Below are positions 4,342 to 21,714 of a DNA stretch of 21,714 bases, one piece after another; position 1 is the stretch's first letter; each line of letters begins with the position of its first letter. A model generated the notes under the pieces. The model did no database searches. It had not been told where the DNA came from and saw only the letters and a program-made list of their open reading frames with translations. Source of the DNA: a virus; IMG/VR virus record IMGVR_UViG_3300009172_000076, positions 1 through 21,714 of that record. One strand, given 5' to 3'. Made by a program: the position numbers and the translations under genes.

Positions 4342-4431
4342 ATGAGTGATTTATTATTTTATATTAAGTGGGGAATAATCGGGTTTGTAATCGGTTGGCC
4401 CATTGGTTACGCAATAGGAACATTTATCTAA
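4342..4431 (+). CDS. 29-residue single-span membrane peptide
   Basis: ATG 4342 to TAA 4431 encodes 29 residues beginning MSDLLFYIKWGIIGF, almost wholly one transmembrane helix (residues about 10-28) with small-residue GxxxG-like spacing (GFVIGWPIG). It starts 2 nt after the DUF3310 stop and its stop overlaps the ketosynthase ATG (TAATG), a classic coupling arrangement, which is the main evidence that it is translated. AGGAA (4416-4420) within it serves the next gene. It could be a membrane tether or regulator for the lipid enzymes that follow. Confidence 0.6.
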   Translation: MSDLLFYIKWGIIGFVIGWPIGYAIGTFI

Positions 4432-5594
4432 TGAAAGATCGAATAGTAATTACTGGTGTTGGTTTGGTGGACACACTCGGAACATATCCAATGGAGTGTT
4501 TTGAGAACATGATCAGTGATCACTATGAACACCCAGTTGATTTTAAGACAGATATAGAGTCTCTCAAAGGATTGGTGTGTTTCAAGTCACGTGATGTGAA
4601 CTATACGATTCCAGCTGGTATTCGTAAACCAGTCTTCGGTTCTCTATCAACAGCATCTAAAAACGCTCTTCATGTTGTACAACAGGCAATGGGAGATATC
4701 GACAGTACCGATGTCGCGGTTGTATTCAGTTCGATTGCAGGAAAGGAAGGTATTAGGAATACAGACTTCTGTAATAAGATGGAGGGTGGTAAACGACTAT
4801 CCCCCCGAACTGCTGTACAGTATCTGAGGGACTTCTCCGCAGGGGTAATCAGTCAGACATTCGACTTCCGTGGTGCGTGTGTCAGTATGGATGCCGCTTG
4901 TGCGACTGGACTGTACTCTATTGATTATGCAATACACCTACTGGACACACATAGGTTTGTTATTGTTGGTGGGACAGATAATCCTGCTATGGATGATAAT
5001 ATGTTCATCTTCAGTCAGTTGGGTGCGCTTGGCACTGCGTCAAAACCCTTTGATAAGAAACGTGATGGGTTCGTCATGGGCGAAGGTGCGGGTGCCTTGT
5101 TATTAGAGAAAGAGTCTGAAGCACGGTTACGTGGTGCGAACATCATTGGGTACATTAACACCGTGTCTCACCATTCAGATGGTGCACTTGGTACACCTAC
5201 TGCACCAGACCCAAACAGTACGGGATCAATTGCGTCTATGACATCTGTCACCCAGAATATAGTTGGAGATGTTGCCTTTGTTAACGCACATGGTACATCA
5301 ACACCAATGGGAGATGACCTAGAGTACAATGCGATTCAGGAAGTCTTACCCAAAGTTCCGGTGATTAGTTTCAAGTCAAAGATTGGACACTCTCTTGCGG
5401 CCAGTGGTATCAATGAAACAATCTATAGTCTGTTGTGTCTCTATAACGGGGTTATACCGAAGAACTTTAATATAGATGAGTGTGACCATGAGTTTGTTTA
5501 TAAATACAAGCATCGATTGACAAGTAAAATTGCTGTGAAGAACTCGTTCGCATTTAGTGGAAGGTCTTCGTCACTGGTTCTGGAGGTAGAATGA
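4431..5594 (+). CDS. Beta-ketoacyl-ACP synthase (KAS I/II, FabF-like)
   Basis: Thiolase-fold enzyme that condenses acyl groups with malonyl-ACP in fatty-acid elongation. 387 residues, slightly shorter than bacterial FabF (~410). The N-terminus RIVITGVGLV is typical. The catalytic triad is complete: Cys157 in DAACATG, His287 in VNAHGTSTP, His320 in KSKIGHS. The usual C-terminal GFGG loop reads AFSG (about 374-377), a change in a loop near the active site that may affect acyl choice. Start 4431 overlaps the upstream membrane-peptide stop; an in-frame extension from 4368 is rejected because it reads through that gene. The 3' end overlaps the desaturase by 4 nt. A phage-borne KAS is uncommon. It might instead act on a polyketide-like substrate. 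Confidence 0.9.
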   Translation: MKDRIVITGVGLVDTLGTYPMECFENMISDHYEHPVDFKTDIESLKGLVCFKSRDVNYTIPAGIRKPVFGSLSTASKNALHVVQQAMGDIDSTDVAVVFSSIAGKEGIRNTDFCNKMEGGKRLSPRTAVQYLRDFSAGVISQTFDFRGACVSMDAACATGLYSIDYAIHLLDTHRFVIVGGTDNPAMDDNMFIFSQLGALGTASKPFDKKRDGFVMGEGAGALLLEKESEARLRGANIIGYINTVSHHSDGALGTPTAPDPNSTGSIASMTSVTQNIVGDVAFVNAHGTSTPMGDDLEYNAIQEVLPKVPVISFKSKIGHSLAASGINETIYSLLCLYNGVIPKNFNIDECDHEFVYKYKHRLTSKIAVKNSFAFSGRSSSLVLEVE

Positions 5595-6304
5595 TAACTG
5601 AATATCTAGGTAAAAACAGTGGGTACGTACATACAATATTTTATATAACGTGTGTACTCTTTACTGTGTTGTGGGTGCCGACATTATCAGTTGTCGAGTT
5701 CTTAGTCTGGTTTGTCGGTGCTCATACTTTTGTCGGATATCTAGTCTCTGCTTTCCAACATCGATACTGTGCACATAAGAGTTGGCAACCGTCAAGGTTC
5801 GTTGAAGTTCTCAGTGTTTTCCTGTGTGCCGGATTCGTGTTGATACCGAATATGGGATGGGCATCTGTCCACAAAAATCACCACAGATACACCGATACCG
5901 AGAAAGACCCACATGGTAATGTGCATAGTGTCTGGGATAACTTCATGGCATTCAACATTGCCCCCTCAAAACATGGTTGGCCTCGATGGATGTTCCGTGA
6001 CCTACTGTACCTTTACCAATTAAAATACTATTGGGAAATTGCGATCCTCTTTGGGGCATTGATGTTTGTGATTGGTATTGGTGAACTATGGTTATCGACT
6101 ATTGCTGTTGCATACATCTTCCAAGTCACTCTCAATATTGTAGGTCACCCAAATAGAAGTCCTGCTAATAGACCGTGGTTGGGACTATTATACAGTGGTG
6201 AACTATACCACAAGAACCACCATGATAACCCCAGCCTATCTAGGTTTGGTTTGATCGATGTTCCATACCTTTTATTCATAAAGTTCTTAGATACCAAGAA
6301 ATAA
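5591..6304 (+). CDS. Membrane fatty-acid desaturase (acyl-CoA/acyl-lipid delta-9 type)
   Basis: Introduces a double bond into fatty acyl chains using a di-iron centre. 237 residues with about four membrane helices. The three histidine boxes are present: HRYCAH (57-62), HKNHH (94-98) and HKNHH (207-211), together with the NIVGH extra ligand region. Short forms like this occur in bacteria and marine phages. ATG 5591 follows GGAGG (5582-5586) and overlaps the ketosynthase stop, so the two enzymes are translated together. An electron donor (ferredoxin or cytochrome b5) is not encoded nearby and would come from the host. Confidence 0.92.
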   Translation: MITEYLGKNSGYVHTIFYITCVLFTVLWVPTLSVVEFLVWFVGAHTFVGYLVSAFQHRYCAHKSWQPSRFVEVLSVFLCAGFVLIPNMGWASVHKNHHRYTDTEKDPHGNVHSVWDNFMAFNIAPSKHGWPRWMFRDLLYLYQLKYYWEIAILFGALMFVIGIGELWLSTIAVAYIFQVTLNIVGHPNRSPANRPWLGLLYSGELYHKNHHDNPSLSRFGLIDVPYLLFIKFLDTKK

Positions 6305-7695: not shown

Positions 7696-7943
7696 TGGAT
7701 GTTGTATCAGTAGTTAACGATTTCGGTTTTCCGATAGTTGCGGCTGTCGGTATGCTTTATATGATTTACTTTGTGTGGAAGACCATTACAAACGAAGTCG
7801 AAAAGAACTTGTCCGAAACAATGACGGTGTTGATAGGTCTCATTGACCGTATCAGGATGTTGGATAATGATATAATTAGATTGCAACAGAAGTTAGACAC
7901 CGCAATCGAAATGAGGAGAAAAACAGATGAAGAAGAGATATAG
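7695..7943 (+). CDS. Membrane protein, GFPI family (paralogue of 6941)
   Basis: 82 residues with the same plan as the 6941 product: MDVVSVVNDFGFPIVAAVGM, a membrane helix, then a heptad-like helix (LSETMTVLIGLIDRIRMLDNDI continuing into a basic tail). Sequence identity is concentrated in the N-terminal GFPI motif and the helix ending DxIRx. The start overlaps the previous stop (TAATG) and the end overlaps csgF by 17 nt. The duplication with divergence of two small membrane proteins in one operon recalls holin/antiholin pairs, but there is no direct evidence. Confidence 0.77.
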   Translation: MDVVSVVNDFGFPIVAAVGMLYMIYFVWKTITNEVEKNLSETMTVLIGLIDRIRMLDNDIIRLQQKLDTAIEMRRKTDEEEI

Positions 7944-8412
7944 TTGGATACAACTCTTTGAGGGTACGTCACTGACAGTTGCGATGATTCTGATGATGTT
8001 GATAATCACAGAAGTATCAGTTGCCGCACCCATAGAGCACAAATTCAAATCTCCTTCCTTCAGTGGTATTAATCAGTCTAGTCACTATTTGACGATAGAG
8101 AACCAAGAGACCTCTAGGAAACAGGCGATAAAACAAGAGATTGAAGACCTCCAAGAACAACTGGAGAGGGACGCAGAGAATACTACTCTAGCAAAATTTA
8201 TTAGGAATGTGGAATCACGTATTTACTCTACACTATCCAGACAGATCGTTGACGGTATGTTCGGAGAGAACCCAAGCGACACGGGTTCGTTTAACATCGA
8301 AGGTACGGGCATATCATACGTTACAGACGGTGATAACGTAATATTAACAATAACAGACGAGAACGGTAATGTCACGACTATTACTATTCCCCTTGGTGAT
8401 TTTGGTATCTAG
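7927..8412 (+). CDS. csgF: CsgF-like curli assembly factor
   Basis: CsgF binds the CsgG outer-membrane pore at its extracellular mouth and helps place the fibre nucleator. 161 residues (E. coli 138) with a long Sec signal (1-33, cleavage near SVA/AP). The mature N-terminus HKFKSPSFSGIN mirrors the CsgF pattern FxFRNPNFGGN, the part that plugs into CsgG. The middle helix FIRNVESRIYSTLSRQIVDG (91-110) matches FTQAIQSQILGGL, and the C-terminal strands (YVTDGDNVILTITDENGN) match the CsgF beta region. An insertion at about 60-85 (charged, helical) is extra to the E. coli form. It precedes csgG with a 44-nt overlap, so the pair is coupled. Confidence 0.88.
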   Translation: MKKRYSWIQLFEGTSLTVAMILMMLIITEVSVAAPIEHKFKSPSFSGINQSSHYLTIENQETSRKQAIKQEIEDLQEQLERDAENTTLAKFIRNVESRIYSTLSRQIVDGMFGENPSDTGSFNIEGTGISYVTDGDNVILTITDENGNVTTITIPLGDFGI

Positions 8413-9169
8413 TTGTGCCAGTCTCGGAGGAGGTAATTTCGAGATACCAAGTGTGGAAGAACCGAAAGTACAACTTACTCTGTTACAGAAAGAGTTAAAG
8501 AATGTTTCGGAACCGACTAGGAAACCCACGGTGGCAGTGTATGAATTCACTGACCAGACGGGACAGAAGAGACAGAACAGTAGTGGCGGAACCTCATTCA
8601 GTTCTGCGGTTACTCAGGCACCCAATGTATATTTGATAAGAGCATTGACACGTGCATCCAACGGAAACTTCTTCCGAGTGGTTGACCGTCAAATTATTGA
8701 CCATGTGACGAGGGAACGACAGTTAATCCGTCAAACCCGACAATCATACGAGGGAAACGACTCTCAGAAGCTGCCAGCACTCACTTTTGCTGGCATGATA
8801 ATTGCAGGAGGTATAGTAGGGTACGATACCTCTGTTGACACAGGCGGAGCTGGTGCTAGATATCTTGGCATCGGTACTTCCCGTGAATATAGTAGAGACA
8901 CTGTGACTATCAATATTCGATTAGTGTCTGTGGCAACAGGTGAGGTTTTACTTGATGTGATATCAAGCAAGACCATACTCTCCACCGCTTTTGGCGGAGA
9001 TGTGTTTAAATTTATCGAACAGGGTACTGAACTGGTTGAGATTGAATCGGGCAGTACAAAAAACGAATCCGTTTCCATTGCAACACAAAGGGCGATAGAA
9101 GCGGGAGTCTTGGAACTTATACTGAGAGGAAGTAAGTATGGTTTCTGGACGCTTAATGGAGAGAAGTAA
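8369..9169 (+). CDS. csgG: CsgG-like outer-membrane secretion pore lipoprotein
   Basis: CsgG forms a nonameric outer-membrane channel that secretes unfolded curlin subunits. 266 residues (E. coli 277). The lipoprotein signal is short, with lipobox LVSSC (Cys16). Landmarks shared with E. coli CsgG, by eye: VAVYEFTDQTGQ (56-66), the loop ending TSFSSAV (75-81), whose Phe77 would correspond to constriction Phe56 while Asn55 becomes Ser, GGIVGYDTSVDTGGAGARY (147-165), IRLVSVATGEVL (183-194) and SKTILS (200-205). The last ~15 residues of the E. coli protein are missing. ATG 8369 lies inside csgF, and the overlap encodes the whole signal peptide. No disabling changes are seen. Confidence 0.94.
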   Translation: MSRLLLFPLVILVSSCASLGGGNFEIPSVEEPKVQLTLLQKELKNVSEPTRKPTVAVYEFTDQTGQKRQNSSGGTSFSSAVTQAPNVYLIRALTRASNGNFFRVVDRQIIDHVTRERQLIRQTRQSYEGNDSQKLPALTFAGMIIAGGIVGYDTSVDTGGAGARYLGIGTSREYSRDTVTINIRLVSVATGEVLLDVISSKTILSTAFGGDVFKFIEQGTELVEIESGSTKNESVSIATQRAIEAGVLELILRGSKYGFWTLNGEK

Positions 9170-9170
9170 A

Positions 9171-9905
9171 ATGAACGCAAAGCAAACGGGTGCGATTCCT
9201 ATGTTCGCTATGATGTTCGTGATTGGTGCTGTGTATGCAGACAATGAAATATATATTGATCAAGTAGGAAGTAGTACTGCTATCGAGATTATTCAAGATG
9301 GTAGTGGCAACAAAATAGGTGGCGGACTCACTGATGAAACAAAGATGTTACTCAGTGGTGACGATATGGACATTAACTTAAACTTCAGTGGTTCTACGAA
9401 CAACTTGATTGGTTCCCTGATTGGTTCTAATTCGGTACTAGACGTAGACGTGACAGGGTCAGGTAACGACCTGTTCTTTGATGTTGATAAAGATAATGCC
9501 TATGGCGCTACAGGCGGGAACTATCTCGTATCTATCACTGGTGGTAACAACGCAGTGGACTTTGATTTTGGTTCACTTGATACCGCAAACGATACGGACT
9601 TTGACTTTATATTGGACGGTGATTTTAACACTGGCGATATAAACATAGATGCATCTAGTCTGACATTCGACATGGATGTGATATCAGATAATTCCAACCT
9701 AGATTATTCAGCAACTGGTTATGATGGCCATCGGTTTATATTGACTGGTACAGGAAACTATTGGGACATTGATGTTACCCAAGAGTCTACTCTACAGTCT
9801 GATTATTTGGAGATATATTATAGTGGTTCAGGCACATCTACCCAAAACGCTACTGTTTGTATTGTTCAGTCTGACGGTGGTTTCGTCAACACTTGCGGCC
9901 AGTAA
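9171..9905 (+). CDS. Curlin-repeat-like secreted protein (candidate fibre subunit)
   Basis: 244 residues with a Sec signal (cleavage near VYA/DN, residue 23). Right after it is one clean curlin-type unit: Q31-x-G33-x-x-T36-x4-Q42-x4-N47 (IDQVGSSTAIEIIQDGSGN), which matches the CsgA/CsgB QxGxxN...Q...N pattern. Further Gly/Asn turns follow at uneven spacing (SGSTN 73-77, GSGN 96-99, TGGN 114-117, TGGNN 123-127, TGTGN 192-196), separated by strongly alternating Asp/hydrophobic strands (DVDV, VDFDFG, DFDFIL). A Cys pair (230, 242) ends the protein. ATG 9171 starts 1 nt after csgG, which suggests it is the CsgG client. It could alternatively be another beta-solenoid adhesin. No clear extra canonical units. 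Confidence 0.72.
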   Translation: MNAKQTGAIPMFAMMFVIGAVYADNEIYIDQVGSSTAIEIIQDGSGNKIGGGLTDETKMLLSGDDMDINLNFSGSTNNLIGSLIGSNSVLDVDVTGSGNDLFFDVDKDNAYGATGGNYLVSITGGNNAVDFDFGSLDTANDTDFDFILDGDFNTGDINIDASSLTFDMDVISDNSNLDYSATGYDGHRFILTGTGNYWDIDVTQESTLQSDYLEIYYSGSGTSTQNATVCIVQSDGGFVNTCGQ

Positions 9906-10938
9906 TGACGTAGGTTTGGTTGACCGAGCAGTTGGATGGAGACAGATAGTAAGGAATGAACAACCCTTAGAACCCAACAAGGGTGAAGAGGTGATATCTA
10001 AGGACGATCTTCGCACAGGCGAGGGTCGTTTGCAGGTACGATTCAGAGATGACAGTAAATTAAGAATGACCGAACACACACGTATTGTGATTGACAATGT
10101 AGTGTTTGATGATGACCCAAGCAAGTCTGACTTGGCGATGACCTTTGCCCAAGGTACTGCAAGATTCATATCTGGTCAGTTGGGTAAGGTAGACAAAGAG
10201 AATATCAGACTCAAGACCCCTACCGCATCTATCGGTATCAGGGGTACAGACTTCACAGTAACCGTTGATGAGTTCGGTAAGACGCTCGTGGTACTTTTGC
10301 CAGACGTTAACGGAATCTCTTCGGGTGAGATTATTGTTTCGACAATGACAGGTGAAGTCACACTCAACAAACCTTTCCAGTCTACCACAGTAGACGTGAT
10401 GGAGAACCCCCCTAGTGCGCCAGCAATCCTAGACCTTACTCTGGATATGTTGAACAACATTATGATTATCAATCCCCCTAAAGAGAAACAGTCTAAAGAA
10501 GACTTCATGGATACTATAAACGCATCCAAGGGCATTAGTTCGTTAGACGTGGACTTTCTTAACGAAGACTTGTTACAAGAAGAAGAACTTGGGAAAGACT
10601 ATCTGGAATTTAATGAACTCGACATCAACTACTTGGACGTTGACTTGTTAGAAGACCTACTGGATAATTTCGATTCTTTGGGAGAGGACGTGTTGCAAGA
10701 ACAACAGTCTAGTGGCGACTTACGTATCGAAGGTACTGAAGAAGGGTTCGACCCAGTCACACAGGTTGCCACTATAGTAGAGGGCGACAAGGTGACGATA
10801 CGCAGAGAGGTGAATGACAAGGTGGTTATCTCGGTAGACAAGTCAGCTGCGACAGTTATAAGTATAGAGCAGGATGGTAAGGAACTAGAGGCAATCAAAC
10901 TTAATGGTATCGACAACTTGATAAGTATAGTACAATGA
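9823..10938 (+). CDS. FecR-domain periplasmic/exported protein with curlin-like C-terminus
   Basis: 371 residues from GTG 9823 (GGAG at 9809-9812). This start gives a good Sec signal (LPKTLLFVLFSLTVVSSTLA, cleavage near 25) encoded wholly inside the end of the curlin-like gene. The FecR domain (about 30-150) shows LRTGEGRLQVRFRDDSKLRM, MTFAQGTARFISG and TPTASIGIRGTDF, all typical. Next comes an acidic Leu/Asp-rich stretch with repeated LDVDFLNEDLL / LDINYLDVDLLEDLL units (about 235-285). The last 22 residues (350-371) read Q-D-G-x4-A-x3-N-G-x2-N-x5-Q, close to one curlin unit. FecR domains in bacteria often sit beside CHASE2 cyclases, as here (4-nt overlap). A CsgB-like nucleator role is inferred. 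Confidence 0.82.
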   Translation: MVQAHLPKTLLFVLFSLTVVSSTLAASNDVGLVDRAVGWRQIVRNEQPLEPNKGEEVISKDDLRTGEGRLQVRFRDDSKLRMTEHTRIVIDNVVFDDDPSKSDLAMTFAQGTARFISGQLGKVDKENIRLKTPTASIGIRGTDFTVTVDEFGKTLVVLLPDVNGISSGEIIVSTMTGEVTLNKPFQSTTVDVMENPPSAPAILDLTLDMLNNIMIINPPKEKQSKEDFMDTINASKGISSLDVDFLNEDLLQEEELGKDYLEFNELDINYLDVDLLEDLLDNFDSLGEDVLQEQQSSGDLRIEGTEEGFDPVTQVATIVEGDKVTIRREVNDKVVISVDKSAATVISIEQDGKELEAIKLNGIDNLISIVQ

Positions 10939-12755
10939 AGACATGGCACGTATTCGTAACACTTGTGATACTGGTGGGACTGAGGTTACTTGACCCGTTC
11001 CTATTAGAGAGTACTCGACTTTCATTCTTTGACTCATTACAACGTGGTCAGGAGACCCAACTGTCCGAACAGATTGTCCTTGTTGATATTGACGAGGAGA
11101 CTCTGGCAAAGTTTGGTCAGTACCCAATCCCACGTAAGGTAATGGCAGATGAAATCGATAAGATAGAAGGTAGTCTTATTGCGTTCAACATTCTGTTCAG
11201 TGAACCTGACAGGGCGGGTGGAGACGAATACTTTGCGGACATCCTATCGTGGAAGAATACAGTAGTTGCCATTGCACCGTCCAACAGAACCAACACAGAC
11301 TACAGACCTCCCCGTATCGGAACCGCAACGTTCGGTGACAGAGATGCCGAAGACTTCCGACCTTTGGTGGAAGGTATGCTTTTTGCACAACCAGTGATAC
11401 ATGAAGCGGCACTTGGTTATGGAACTATCTCATCCGCACAGGACGTTGATGGTATCATCCGTAGACAACCACTACTAGAAAACTTTGACAACAGACTCTA
11501 TCCCGCATTTGCGTTAGACGTATTGAGGGTTGCAGCCGGAGATTCGTCCTACCAGATATCAACAGACGAGTACGGTATTCAGTTTGTTCGTATTCCCAAG
11601 TTCACACCAATACCCACAGATAGTCAGGGTAACGTTACAGTCGCATACTGGAATGAGTTCAAGAGATATTCCTTTACTGACCTCTCAAGTATACCAGAGG
11701 GGTCTATAATCATCGTAGGCGGGAGTTACGCAGGTTCTAGTGTAGTTAGTACACCTATGGGTTCTATGTATCCGCATGACGTACAAGCAAATCTGGTCAA
11801 GACAATGATCGGGGGTGTGACCATCGAACGACCCCCAGAATTTATTTTCTATGAGCTCTTGACAACTCTTGTATTATGTGGTATAATCCTAGCTCTTCTA
11901 GGGAAGGCTGATATACTAATTTCAGGAGTGTCGTATGTCATCATAATTGGTGGTATTCTGTATGTGGTCAACGAACTATTCAATACCCAGTATCTCCAAC
12001 TAGACCCAACATTCCCAATTATCACATTGACCTTGGTGTTTGCTCACGGTTCCTTTGTTCAGTTCTATGTACAGTTCAAAGCTAAACAACTTATTAAAGG
12101 ACAGTTCGGTACGTACCTATCACCCGACATGGTAGATATGTTGGCCAAAGACCCCAGTCTACTGAAGTTGGGTGGAGAGAAAAAAGAGATGACATTCCTC
12201 TTCATGGACATTGTAGGATTCACCCCCATATCAGAACACTATAAAAACAAGGACGATGCGGAAGGGTTGGTTATACTCATTAATAACTACCTAAATGAGA
12301 TGACTAATATTATCCTAAATAACGGTGGAACCATAGATAAGTATATGGGTGATTGTATCATGGCGTTTTGGAACGCCCCCTTACCTTGTGAGAATCATGC
12401 TGAGATGGCAGTGAAGTCCGCAATAGAAATAGAAGAGAAGACAGATGAACTTAGACAGAGATACATTGCGGAAGGTTTACCACCGATTAACGTTGGAACT
12501 GGTATCAATACTGGGTCTTGTATTGTTGGTAATATGGGTAGTGAGTCACGGTTTGATTATTCAGTCATCGGAGACGCAGTCAACCTTGCCGCAAGACTTG
12601 AAGCAACTGCCGCAAGAGGAGACTATCTTGAATACAAAACTATCTACTCCAAAGCAACCAAAGACCAACTCATAGATATAGAGTCAAGTCCGATAGGACT
12701 CATTAAGGTAAAAGGAAAGGAAGAAGAAATTGAAATCTATACACATAATCGATGA
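10935..12755 (+). CDS. CHASE2-domain class III adenylate/guanylate cyclase
   Basis: 606-residue membrane sensor cyclase making cAMP (or cGMP) from NTP. One N-terminal signal/membrane helix (5-22), a periplasmic CHASE2 sensor (about 25-300, with VLVDIDEETLAKFGQYP and GSIIIVGGSYAG), three membrane helices (about 305-385), a short linker (FGTYLSPDMVDMLAKDP) and a catalytic domain (about 410-600). Catalytic residues look intact: metal-binding Asp425 (FMDIVGFT) and Asp473, base-binding Lys469 (DKYMGD), Asn550 and Arg554 (GDAVNLAARLE). The second base-selecting position is Ser543 where bacterial adenylate cyclases usually have Thr, so ATP is favoured but not certain. Overlaps fecR by 4 nt. Confidence 0.93.
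   Translation: MKTWHVFVTLVILVGLRLLDPFLLESTRLSFFDSLQRGQETQLSEQIVLVDIDEETLAKFGQYPIPRKVMADEIDKIEGSLIAFNILFSEPDRAGGDEYFADILSWKNTVVAIAPSNRTNTDYRPPRIGTATFGDRDAEDFRPLVEGMLFAQPVIHEAALGYGTISSAQDVDGIIRRQPLLENFDNRLYPAFALDVLRVAAGDSSYQISTDEYGIQFVRIPKFTPIPTDSQGNVTVAYWNEFKRYSFTDLSSIPEGSIIIVGGSYAGSSVVSTPMGSMYPHDVQANLVKTMIGGVTIERPPEFIFYELLTTLVLCGIILALLGKADILISGVSYVIIIGGILYVVNELFNTQYLQLDPTFPIITLTLVFAHGSFVQFYVQFKAKQLIKGQFGTYLSPDMVDMLAKDPSLLKLGGEKKEMTFLFMDIVGFTPISEHYKNKDDAEGLVILINNYLNEMTNIILNNGGTIDKYMGDCIMAFWNAPLPCENHAEMAVKSAIEIEEKTDELRQRYIAEGLPPINVGTGINTGSCIVGNMGSESRFDYSVIGDAVNLAARLEATAARGDYLEYKTIYSKATKDQLIDIESSPIGLIKVKGKEEEIEIYTHNR
11859..11887 (+). promoter_or_regulatory. Perfect sigma70 promoter sequence inside the cyclase gene
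   Basis: TTGACA (11859-11864), exactly 17 nt, TATAAT (11882-11887), inside codons for the first membrane helix after CHASE2. If used, it would transcribe the catalytic half and the 12730 gene without the sensor. No leader of family A or B follows it, so activity is uncertain. Confidence 0.4.
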
Positions 12756-18978: not shown

Positions 18979-19694
18979 ATTTTAAACATGAACCAGTCAC
19001 GTTGACTGAAATGAATGCAGTGACCACTGATACTGGTCGTAAGTATATGACACCCGAAGGCATTAACCTTCCGTCTATTACAACGGTGCTATCCATTTTG
19101 TCACGTGACTCCATCGCCAAGTGGCGTAAACGTGTTGGTGCTGCAGAGGCGAACCGTGTCTCATATCGTGCATCGACCCGTGGTACATCTGTTCACGAAA
19201 TCTGTGAGAAGTACGTGAACAACGACCCAGCCTATGACAAGTTCATGGCAACCGACCCCGACACTGGGGAACAAACGTTGACTACCCGCACACCTGACCT
19301 AATCGATTCTTTCCTAAAGATTAAACCAATCCTCGATGAACGTCTGACTACGGTGTACGCACAAGAAGCACCCCTGTACTCTACCCATCTGGGTGTTGCA
19401 GGTCGTGTGGATTGTGTGGGTATCTTCGATGGTAAACTATCCATCATTGACTACAAGACTTCTATGAAACCCAAGAAACTCGATTGGGTTAAGAACTACT
19501 TCATGCAGGAAGCAGGTTATGCTGTAATGTGGGAAGAACGTACTGGTCAACCGATTACTCAGTTGGTTACTATTATCTCTGTTGATAATAACGAACCTCA
19601 AGTCTTCATCGAACATCGTGATAACTGGATTAATACGTTAAGAAATACAATTAAACAGTATAATGAGGAAAACTCTGCTTCCATTTTGTTATAA
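18975..19694 (+). CDS. PD-(D/E)XK nuclease, RecB/Cas4-type
   Basis: 239 residues. The RecB-family motifs appear in order: GTSVHEICEKY (H74), E131 in the strand before GVAGRVDCVG, Asp146, D159-Y-K161 in IIDYKTS, and Q178-x3-Y182 in QEAGYAVMW. These form the metal site and the QxxxY helix of Cas4/RecB-type exonucleases. No Cys cluster for a Fe-S site is visible, so it is closer to simple phage exonucleases than to Cas4. ATG 18975 is chosen over 18864, which reads through the upstream membrane gene. Role in DNA recombination or degradation is inferred. Confidence 0.87.
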   Translation: MNFKHEPVTLTEMNAVTTDTGRKYMTPEGINLPSITTVLSILSRDSIAKWRKRVGAAEANRVSYRASTRGTSVHEICEKYVNNDPAYDKFMATDPDTGEQTLTTRTPDLIDSFLKIKPILDERLTTVYAQEAPLYSTHLGVAGRVDCVGIFDGKLSIIDYKTSMKPKKLDWVKNYFMQEAGYAVMWEERTGQPITQLVTIISVDNNEPQVFIEHRDNWINTLRNTIKQYNEENSASILL

Positions 19695-19697
19695 ATA
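19690..19697 (+). promoter_or_regulatory. T4-type late promoter
   Basis: TATAAATA at the very end of the nuclease gene, 36 nt before ATG 19734. It should drive the two virion-type genes that follow. A TATAAT (19702-19707) next to it lacks a good -35. Confidence 0.75.
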
Positions 19698-19733: not shown

Positions 19734-21026
19734 ATGTTTTCGTTTCAACAGTTCTTATCTGAGGAAGTCGCTAGTGGTGACTTCCCCGAAGGAGTTTTTG
19801 GTGGACTCTCTATAGAGAAGAAATCAGAGAACTCCAAGACCGCAGTCTTTGTCGTTAGGTCTGATGACCGATTGAGTGACCGAGACGAAATATTACGTAA
19901 TCTAAAACAAGCCGGTATCAAGGCAGAAGTGCGAGAAAAGGCGGGACAGGGTGTTGACCCGATCTTCATCGATTCCCACTTTGATGTTACGGTTATCCTT
20001 TTAATAAAACCTAAGTCTGGTGGTGTTGGTGAGACTACACTAAACGCATCTATCACTGAGTTGTTCCCTGCTATCGCATGGGAGACTGGTTATAAAATGA
20101 CAACCAGTGTTGATAACTTCTACTACCACCTACTAGAACAAGACCCATCCAAACTCAAATGTGTTAATCCTAAAGACTTGGATGCCGCAGTTGATACTAT
20201 TCAGAAGGCATCTGAATCATCTAAGTTCACCGAGAAGATGTTGAACGCAATGGGTGTCTACAAGTATCTACAGGAAGAGAACAAGTCTAAAAGGATTAAA
20301 CAAGTCTACTGGGGGTATCGTGCCAAACCTACAGGTGTTCCTAAGAACCATCCTGGCGATATCTTTATTGAGTTCATTGATGGTGAGATGCTTGGGGTAT
20401 CACTCAAGGCTGGTGGTAAGAGTACTAAAGAACCTAAACTCAATACCTATGTGAATCCAGTATTCACTGCGTTCAAACAGGTGCGTCAACTATCTGCATT
20501 GCGTAGAGAACTACACTCAAAAGTATTCTCAAATATCGAAGGTATGCCTTCCTCTGGTCAATATGACAAGTCCAAGAGATCAACCACATCTAAACTGTTG
20601 GTTCAATTAAATAAAGACGATAGTAAAAGGTACGAAAGTCTATATGACCAACATCTAGAGATTTGTCGTAAGAGTGTTATTGACCTATTCAATGCGAACA
20701 AAGATACGACACTTGATTATATCCGTTCCGAGATATTGAGAGATGCACCTGATGTTCCTACCAAGGTTATCAAAGCAGTCAAAGATAACTTTACTGAGAT
20801 CACCGCTGATGATGAACTAGGCGTATTCTTACCTATGGTTAAGTTCGTCAAAGCATACCCATCCAAGTCTTCCAAACAAAACTGGTTTTTAGAGTTGAAA
20901 TCTCGTGACACATCTGTTATAATGGAGATGACAATACGGACGAACAAGTCTGGTAGTGCGGGACAGAAGAAGCTGGGACAGTTCTTTAACCTTGCAATAA
21001 AATATAACTCGTTGAGTATCAAATAA
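19734..21026 (+). CDS. Putative capsid-packaged protein with nuclease-like core
   Basis: 430 residues. Its N-terminus MFSFQQFLSEE resembles the T4 capsid-targeting sequence MKTYQEFIAE of internal proteins, with a gp21-type cleavage motif LSE at 8-10. Behind that are a mixed alpha/beta region, then HPGDIFIEF...LGVSLKAGG (206-228), where D209 and S223-x-K225 resemble a degenerate PD-(D/E)XK site. The remainder is helical with no recognised domain. Late promoter at 19690 and coupling to the next gene (TAATG) support a virion-associated role. I do not recognise a named family. Confidence 0.7.
   Translation: MFSFQQFLSEEVASGDFPEGVFGGLSIEKKSENSKTAVFVVRSDDRLSDRDEILRNLKQAGIKAEVREKAGQGVDPIFIDSHFDVTVILLIKPKSGGVGETTLNASITELFPAIAWETGYKMTTSVDNFYYHLLEQDPSKLKCVNPKDLDAAVDTIQKASESSKFTEKMLNAMGVYKYLQEENKSKRIKQVYWGYRAKPTGVPKNHPGDIFIEFIDGEMLGVSLKAGGKSTKEPKLNTYVNPVFTAFKQVRQLSALRRELHSKVFSNIEGMPSSGQYDKSKRSTTSKLLVQLNKDDSKRYESLYDQHLEICRKSVIDLFNANKDTTLDYIRSEILRDAPDVPTKVIKAVKDNFTEITADDELGVFLPMVKFVKAYPSKSSKQNWFLELKSRDTSVIMEMTIRTNKSGSAGQKKLGQFFNLAIKYNSLSIK
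20895..20923 (+). promoter_or_regulatory. Possible internal sigma70-type promoter
   Basis: TTGAAA (20895-20900), 17-nt spacer, TATAAT (20918-20923), 102 nt before the next gene. Inside a coding region and without leader A or B, so weakly supported. Confidence 0.3.
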
Positions 21027-21714
21027 TGGAATTTAAGAACTTTATCGCAGAGCAGAAGAATACTCACATGACCCATATCGAGGATAAGGTTCTCTATGGG
21101 GGTGTTAACGGTACACGACAGGCAATCAATGCACTACGTGAACTCCGTGATATGTTGTCTGGTCAGACTAAGAGTAAACTGTCAACCAAGTGGGACGGTG
21201 CTCCCGCAATCTTCTGTGGCACAGACCCTAGTGACGGAAAGTTCTTTATTGCAAAGAAGGGCATCTTCAATAAGAATCCCCAACTCTTTAAGTCTGCTCA
21301 AGAGATTGATGCAGAACTTTCGGGTGACCTTGCGGTCAAGATGAAACTCGCATTGAAACACGTACCTGAACTTGGTATCAAGGGTATCATTCAGGGAGAT
21401 TTCTTATTCTCAACCGGAGATACTAGTAATGAGGTTATTGAAGGTGACAAGTATACAACCTTTCATCCCAACACCATCATATATGCGATACCTTATGATC
21501 AAGCTGCCGATGTACGAAAGGCGAAGATTGGAGTCGTGTGGCACACAACCTACACAGGTGATACTTTCGAGTCACTCAAGGCATCCTATGGAGTGGACGT
21601 ATCCAAATTTAAGGATTCGAAGAATGTCTGGTCACAGGACGCAATGTTAAGAGATGTGTCTGGTGCGACTATGGATGCGAAGGAAACTAAGGAAGTTACG
21701 GAACACCTAAGTAA
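21026..21714 (+). CDS. DUF6267-like protein with KxDG motif (partial, 3' end outside)
   Basis: At least 229 residues, open at the window edge. The N-terminus MEFKNFIAEQ again looks like a capsid-targeting sequence with IAE cleavage motif (7-9). The body, with THMTHIEDKVLYGG, STKWDGAPAIFCG, FFIAKKGIFNKNPQLF, GIIQGDFLFS, YTTFHPNTIIYA and VVWHTTYTG, matches a protein I recall from marine T4-like phages (DUF6267). KWDG (about 56-59) resembles the KxDG lysine-adenylation motif of DNA/RNA ligases, and QGDFLF and KIGVVWHT could be later motifs. Starts at the previous stop (TAATG). Confidence 0.78.
   Translation, partial: MEFKNFIAEQKNTHMTHIEDKVLYGGVNGTRQAINALRELRDMLSGQTKSKLSTKWDGAPAIFCGTDPSDGKFFIAKKGIFNKNPQLFKSAQEIDAELSGDLAVKMKLALKHVPELGIKGIIQGDFLFSTGDTSNEVIEGDKYTTFHPNTIIYAIPYDQAADVRKAKIGVVWHTTYTGDTFESLKASYGVDVSKFKDSKNVWSQDAMLRDVSGATMDAKETKEVTEHLS

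Follow-up and report, generated by a model that had tools for sequence, protein, structure and literature searches.

Probable T4-type capsid-targeting leaders on two late genes of a Kyanoviridae-type phage

The locus and its two leader-bearing genes

The window analysed here is the whole IMG/VR fragment IMGVR_UViG_3300009172_000076, 21,714 nt in length, which ends in two adjacent genes, ORF A and ORF B, each opening with a short leader:

19690..19697, plus strand: late-promoter-like TATAAATA, 36 bases before ORF A and overlapping the stop of the upstream exonuclease gene
19734..19763, plus strand: ORF A leader MFSFQQFLSE, with a prohead-protease cut predicted after E10
19734..21026, plus strand: ORF A (phrog_2496), 430 aa; its product is predicted to be packaged and is tentatively assigned as a HinP1I-like endonuclease
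21026..21052, plus strand: ORF B leader MEFKNFIAE, with a prohead-protease cut predicted after E9
21026..21714, plus strand: ORF B, DUF6267 (KxDG) protein, 229 aa seen, truncated by the contig end

A sequence-only reading of the fragment had likened both leaders to that of T4 internal proteins, MKTYQEFIAE. The likeness is borne out: the leaders stand at the gene starts (19734 and 21026), IPII and IPIII begin with MKTYQEFIAE in the T4 record, and the (L/I)xE site lies at the expected place, with the leaders matching T4 positions 4, 7 and 8-10. The ORF B leader has one residue fewer before its first F than the T4-type spacing. Both leaders lie outside the conserved domains, since the phrog_2496 match begins at residue 27 of ORF A and the DUF6267 domain at residue 12 of ORF B. 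Residues 1-8 of ORF A are disordered in the structural model (pLDDT < 50). The same reading had both genes follow a late promoter, which holds directly for ORF A. ORF B has no promoter of its own; its ATG overlaps the ORF A stop by one base and it shares the ORF A promoter, so the statement is true only of the two genes as one operon.

ORF B is a member of DUF6267 (PF19782; E 2e-69, 235 bits against a curated cut-off of 27), the match spanning 217 of the 376 positions of the family, with the remainder beyond the contig end. A near-identical contig (L011/L091) completes the protein at 406 aa. Two genes downstream of DUF6267, this contig carries a nucleotidyltransferase gene with a GTG start, which reads MIKDFKSYLTEE and so presents the leader again.

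Elsewhere in the window, a row of genes at 7927-12755 encodes the curli-secretion proteins CsgF and CsgG, a protein with a FecR domain and one that combines CHASE2 with an adenylate/guanylate cyclase (Pfam E of 1e-17, 4e-49, 3e-12 and 2e-39, respectively), and at 4368-6304 a beta-ketoacyl synthase gene adjoins a fatty-acid desaturase gene.

Distribution and form of the leader motif

Two DNA patterns, one for each motif spacing, match the window once each, both at these gene starts, and dinucleotide shuffles of the window yield 0.01 and 0.06 matches to them. Over all of T4 (169 kb) the same pattern has three matches, all of them gene starts (ipII, ipIII and gene 61.1), and the variant with one extra residue has one further match, inside uvsW. 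A search for the motif in other genes, proposed along with the sequence-only reading, does find it. In C48C1, the nearest complete genome, the strict motif opens 6 of 197 N-termini against 0 of 1018 internal Met (Fisher 1.7e-5). In 104 related IMG/VR loci, partly redundant contigs that were fetched in part with the two leaders as search peptides, it is present in 259 of 1866 genes against 0 of 7664 internal Met; counts for leaders on ORF A and DUF6267 are biased upward, because these leaders were among the fetching patterns, and neighbouring genes were unselected. The core [FY]..[FY][ILVMT].E at residues 3-5 is enriched 49-fold in C48C1 and 33-fold in S-CREM2. The shuffle counts and the comparison of N-termini with internal Met in C48C1 and the IMG/VR loci led us to reject chance resemblance. 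UvsW of C48C1 (MKDYSHFMVE), one of the six matches in that genome, was judged a false positive, as the segment belongs to a folded domain.

Leader-bearing genes of the IMG/VR loci form about 20 unrelated clusters. A NATAAATA element within 80 bases upstream precedes 61 of 79 leader genes in these loci, compared with 84 of 494 other genes; the comparison was confined to genes whose upstream gap measures 25 bases or more, and the loci are related, so that events are not independent. Wherever ORF A has the leader in related loci, the element is found within the same distance (19 of 19 genes).

In T4, mutagenesis of the IPIII leader has shown that targeting depends mainly on residues 4 and 7 and processing on residues 8 and 10, and the prohead protease gp21 cuts after L/I-x-E (PMC9026906). 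The positions conserved in the marine leaders (4, 7, 8 and 10) are these targeting and processing residues. The genes for gp21 and gp23 lie outside our fragment; in C48C1 and S-CREM2, gp21 is annotated and carries GELNHP/GELGHP and GVSxRGxG motifs, and the gp23 cut site is kept (FLTE and LLTE, respectively, compared with FLTE in T4). The residue after the predicted cut is E, Q, K or V, whereas A follows the T4 gp22, gp23, IPII and IPIII sites.

The leader is not a fixed block. In DUF6267, 70 of 95 genes have the strict leader (a count subject to the fetching bias), and in nearly all of the 95 the conserved KNTHMTHIED is immediately preceded by an x-E site; in the ORF B leader, F and E are invariant in 41 homologues. 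Isolates with a leader on DUF6267 include C48C1, Stenotrophomonas phage DLP_6 and Melnitz phages. Variant DUF6267 leaders have an altered first part or spacing (MNFSDFIDLNE, MKTFFEQELLSE and MENFKTHITE), in some relatives of ORF A extra residues separate FxxF from LSE (MKSFTQFNNISIPTVEPLLSEE), and in cyanophages many homologues of ORF A, as well as of DUF6267, are leaderless, so that ORF B differs from these members of the Pfam family in the leader that precedes its domain. Variation in spacing with the x-E fixed before the domain, together with the inserts and the leaderless homologues, is in keeping with a tag that combines docking and cutting parts and can be gained and lost.

In different phages the slot immediately upstream of DUF6267 is occupied by many unrelated proteins with leaders (L013 from 3618 onward, L036, L045, L053, L064, L069, L074 and L075), which belong to clusters 3, 7, 8, 14, 15 and 16, most of them without a Pfam family. 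The slot has the appearance of a hot spot where cargo is exchanged. In T4, the sole other gene start with the leader pattern besides ipII and ipIII is that of gp61.1 (MKTFKEFIKEDMVAGDSGG...; L116 967-1131, minus strand), which is thus a candidate for an unrecognised internal protein of T4. Gene 61.1 adjoins the primase gene 61, and S-CREM2 gp160, a virion protein, is also encoded near a primase.

Virion proteins of relatives and the nature of the cargo

Virion proteomes cover relatives of this phage, none of which bears the leader on ORF A or DUF6267. The published S-CREM2 virion proteome comprises 52 proteins, and these include all four of the gene-start leader matches of that genome (p = 0.003, and 0.00035 among non-structural genes; PMC10665884): the SAM hydrolase gp6 (MKDFDSFLEE), the APH-type kinase gp14 (MKRFDAFLTE), gp136 (MQTFSMFFSE) and the nucleotidyltransferase gp154 (MKNFSSFLTE). 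A looser match, gp13 (MKDLHSFLTE), is listed there as well. Another virion protein, gp12 (L120 7704-10313, minus strand), carries a Cas9-like annotation; its residues 18-26, RFASFMAEA, are likewise a looser match, in which the leader core may be preceded either by an N-terminal extension or by a misannotated start.

Nucleotidyltransferases of other cyanophages also carry the leader and are reported in virions: MKKFSAFLNE in S-SM1 (PMC3037559), MRFRQFIIE in S-SZBM1 (PMC9146016) and MKSFLQFLKE in S-SCSM1 (PMC9602691). Across four Kyanoviridae, 7 of 10 leader genes encode reported virion proteins (p = 0.0005); without the nucleotidyltransferase, the protein that led to the choice of these phages, the figure is 3 of 6 (p = 0.09). 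The leader proteins S-SZBM1_191, S-SZBM1_192 and SSCSM1_30, all small, are not among the reported virion proteins. By contrast, in S-SZBM1 the leader-bearing _140 is in the proteome table, and neither the adjacent _141, a DUF6267 protein that lacks the leader, nor _142 is found in that paper (PMC9146016). S-SCSM1_90, annotated as a virion protein, has no strict leader and is similar to ORF A over the first 110 residues of the latter (E 8e-8), and the ORF A family may therefore reach virions by more than one route.

In S-SCSM1, the five consecutive genes 89-93 around the nucleotidyltransferase (L211 24358-29836) are all annotated as virion proteins. The strict leader is found only on gene 91, which may point to a second leader form or to other packaging routes.

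Enzymes found in the virions of T4-like cyanophages, namely the nucleotidyltransferase/NMNAT T4-GC190, the SAM hydrolase and the APH-type kinase, carry the same leader as the genes described here, but the accessible parts of the published reports name no targeting signal (PMC10665884, PMC9602691, PMC3037559, PMC9146016). Leader cargo further includes proteins of cytidylyltransferase-like, zeta-toxin/AAA_33 kinase and HAD or polynucleotide-kinase-type phosphatase character, and the kinds of cargo across related phages comprise nucleotidyltransferase, DUF6267, the ORF A family, P-loop kinase, HAD phosphatase and small basic proteins. PADLOC, run on six cargo proteins, gave nothing credible, and neither did a sequence search of solved structures.

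ORF A had been described as nuclease-like, a label for which we find moderate support in its predicted fold and none in its sequence. Its model (pLDDT 85) aligns with the restriction endonuclease HinP1I over residues 92-427 (VIA-align; Z 8.9, 211 residues, rmsd 4.4) at 11% identity, and residues 4-96, an additional domain compared with HinP1I, align with Pol-beta-type nucleotidyltransferases (Z about 8), both scores being moderate. D209 and S223-x-K225 are invariant. Pfam lends no support to a nuclease, and Foldseek returned no match under E 0.001. We tentatively regard ORF A, on the strength of the model, as a HinP1I-like endonuclease (PD-(D/E)xK) with an N-terminal nucleotidyltransferase-like domain.

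The description of ORF B as a KxDG protein stands in so far as it is a DUF6267 protein with ligase-like motifs, for which fold support is weak. Numbered as in the 406-aa copy, K55-x-D57-G58, G124-D125, E367-G368-x-V370 and K381-x-V383-x-R385 show no variation among 41 sequences, and we tentatively read them as motifs in ligase order, starting from the KxDG as motif I. The DUF6267 model is poor (pLDDT 74), and RNA and DNA ligases score Z 4.8 to 6.4 against it (1xdn, Z 6.4), listed among unrelated folds; hhalign detected no relation of DUF6267 to T4 RNA ligase 2 or DNA ligase. Foldseek gave no confident match for the ORF A and ORF B models, and no paper naming DUF6267 was found in the literature searched, mostly outside subscription journals. 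An ATP-dependent-ligase-like protein of the covalent nucleotidyltransferase superfamily is thus a tentative assignment for ORF B.

Capsid targeting and its alternatives

We consider the leader motif real, and a T4-type capsid-targeting sequence is its most likely identity. This interpretation is well supported by the N-terminal enrichment, the unrelated cargo, the agreement with the T4 determinants, the late promoters, the gp21/gp23 system and the proteomics of relatives. The marine leaders share with those of T4 IPII and IPIII, which are cut by gp21, their length and spacing, the aromatic residues at positions 4 and 7, the (L/I)xE at 8-10, late expression, and gp21 and the gp23 site as kept in relatives. 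They differ in that their cargo is unrelated to the internal proteins and includes enzyme-like proteins, in that they occur on about 20 protein clusters as opposed to few in T4, and in the more variable spacing and the lack of alanine after the cut sites.

The similarity of these leaders could have other explanations. It is conceivable, though unlikely, that the leader is a genuine head-targeting signal whose cargo acts inside the particle, in the core, in DNA condensation or in head maturation, and is not delivered. Small basic leader cargo such as the product of C48C1 gene 88 could bind packaged DNA, and T4 IPIII acts in head assembly (PMC9026906); however, the SAM hydrolase, kinase and nucleotidyltransferase have no obvious structural role, and T4 internal proteins and leader fusions do reach cells (PMC9026906). 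A good deal less probable is that the motif directs proteins to the neck, the tail or an assembly partner located elsewhere than inside the head, and that gp21 leaves it uncut. The leader gene gp136 of S-CREM2 lies among neck, terminase and tail genes, and the published whole-particle proteomics is silent on where in the particle a protein resides. Against this, T4 head-targeting residues and the gp21 cut site are matched position for position, and x-E keeps its place beside the domain even where the docking part has moved.

We give still less credence to a shared N-terminus unrelated to virions, be it a stability or translation signal or the trace of a common ancestry of late genes. A ten-residue amphipathic segment can arise otherwise, the C48C1 UvsW match lying within a folded domain, and many homologues function without the leader. 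Yet the leader recurs on unrelated families, is tied to late promoters, is absent at internal positions and, in S-CREM2, coincides with detection in the virion.

Our preferred explanation, to which we assign a probability of roughly 0.8, is therefore that the late genes ORF A and ORF B of this Kyanoviridae-type T4-like phage carry a T4-type capsid-targeting sequence, and that their products are cut by gp21, packaged in the head and leave it with the DNA as do T4 internal proteins. We infer the packaging of both proteins from the evidence above; for leader proteins in general the following course of events is envisaged. The aromatic residues of the leader would dock the protein onto the prohead core, and gp21 would then cut after (L/I)xE during head maturation. 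The mature protein would stay in the DNA-filled head and exit with the DNA at infection. In related marine phages the same leader serves as a swappable tag for a wide range of unrelated proteins.

What the cargo might do can be addressed with less confidence. A nucleic-acid end-processing kit among the cargo is a reasonable guess. A more speculative extension, which we regard as doubtful, is that many marine T4-like phages carry in the head a preformed kit of ligase-like DUF6267, HinP1I-like endonuclease, zeta/PNK-type kinase, HAD phosphatase and nucleotidyltransferase, delivered with the genome, which would mend or counteract cuts made by the host in phage DNA or tRNA ahead of any phage gene expression, the leader being the tag that chooses the cargo.

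The mechanism itself is known from T4, but its use on such cargo across marine T4-like (Kyanoviridae-like) phages appears unreported: the literature searched for a cyanophage capsid-targeting sequence, mostly non-subscription, held nothing beyond the T4 review. The leader provides a sequence rule by which proteins likely to be packed and delivered by abundant marine T4-like phages can be predicted from genomes and metagenomes, and it offers a mechanism for enzymes that have repeatedly been found in cyanophage virions without explanation. Whether leader cargo is delivered becomes a directly testable question. Our findings suggest that the DNA delivered by marine T4-like phages is accompanied by preformed enzymes.
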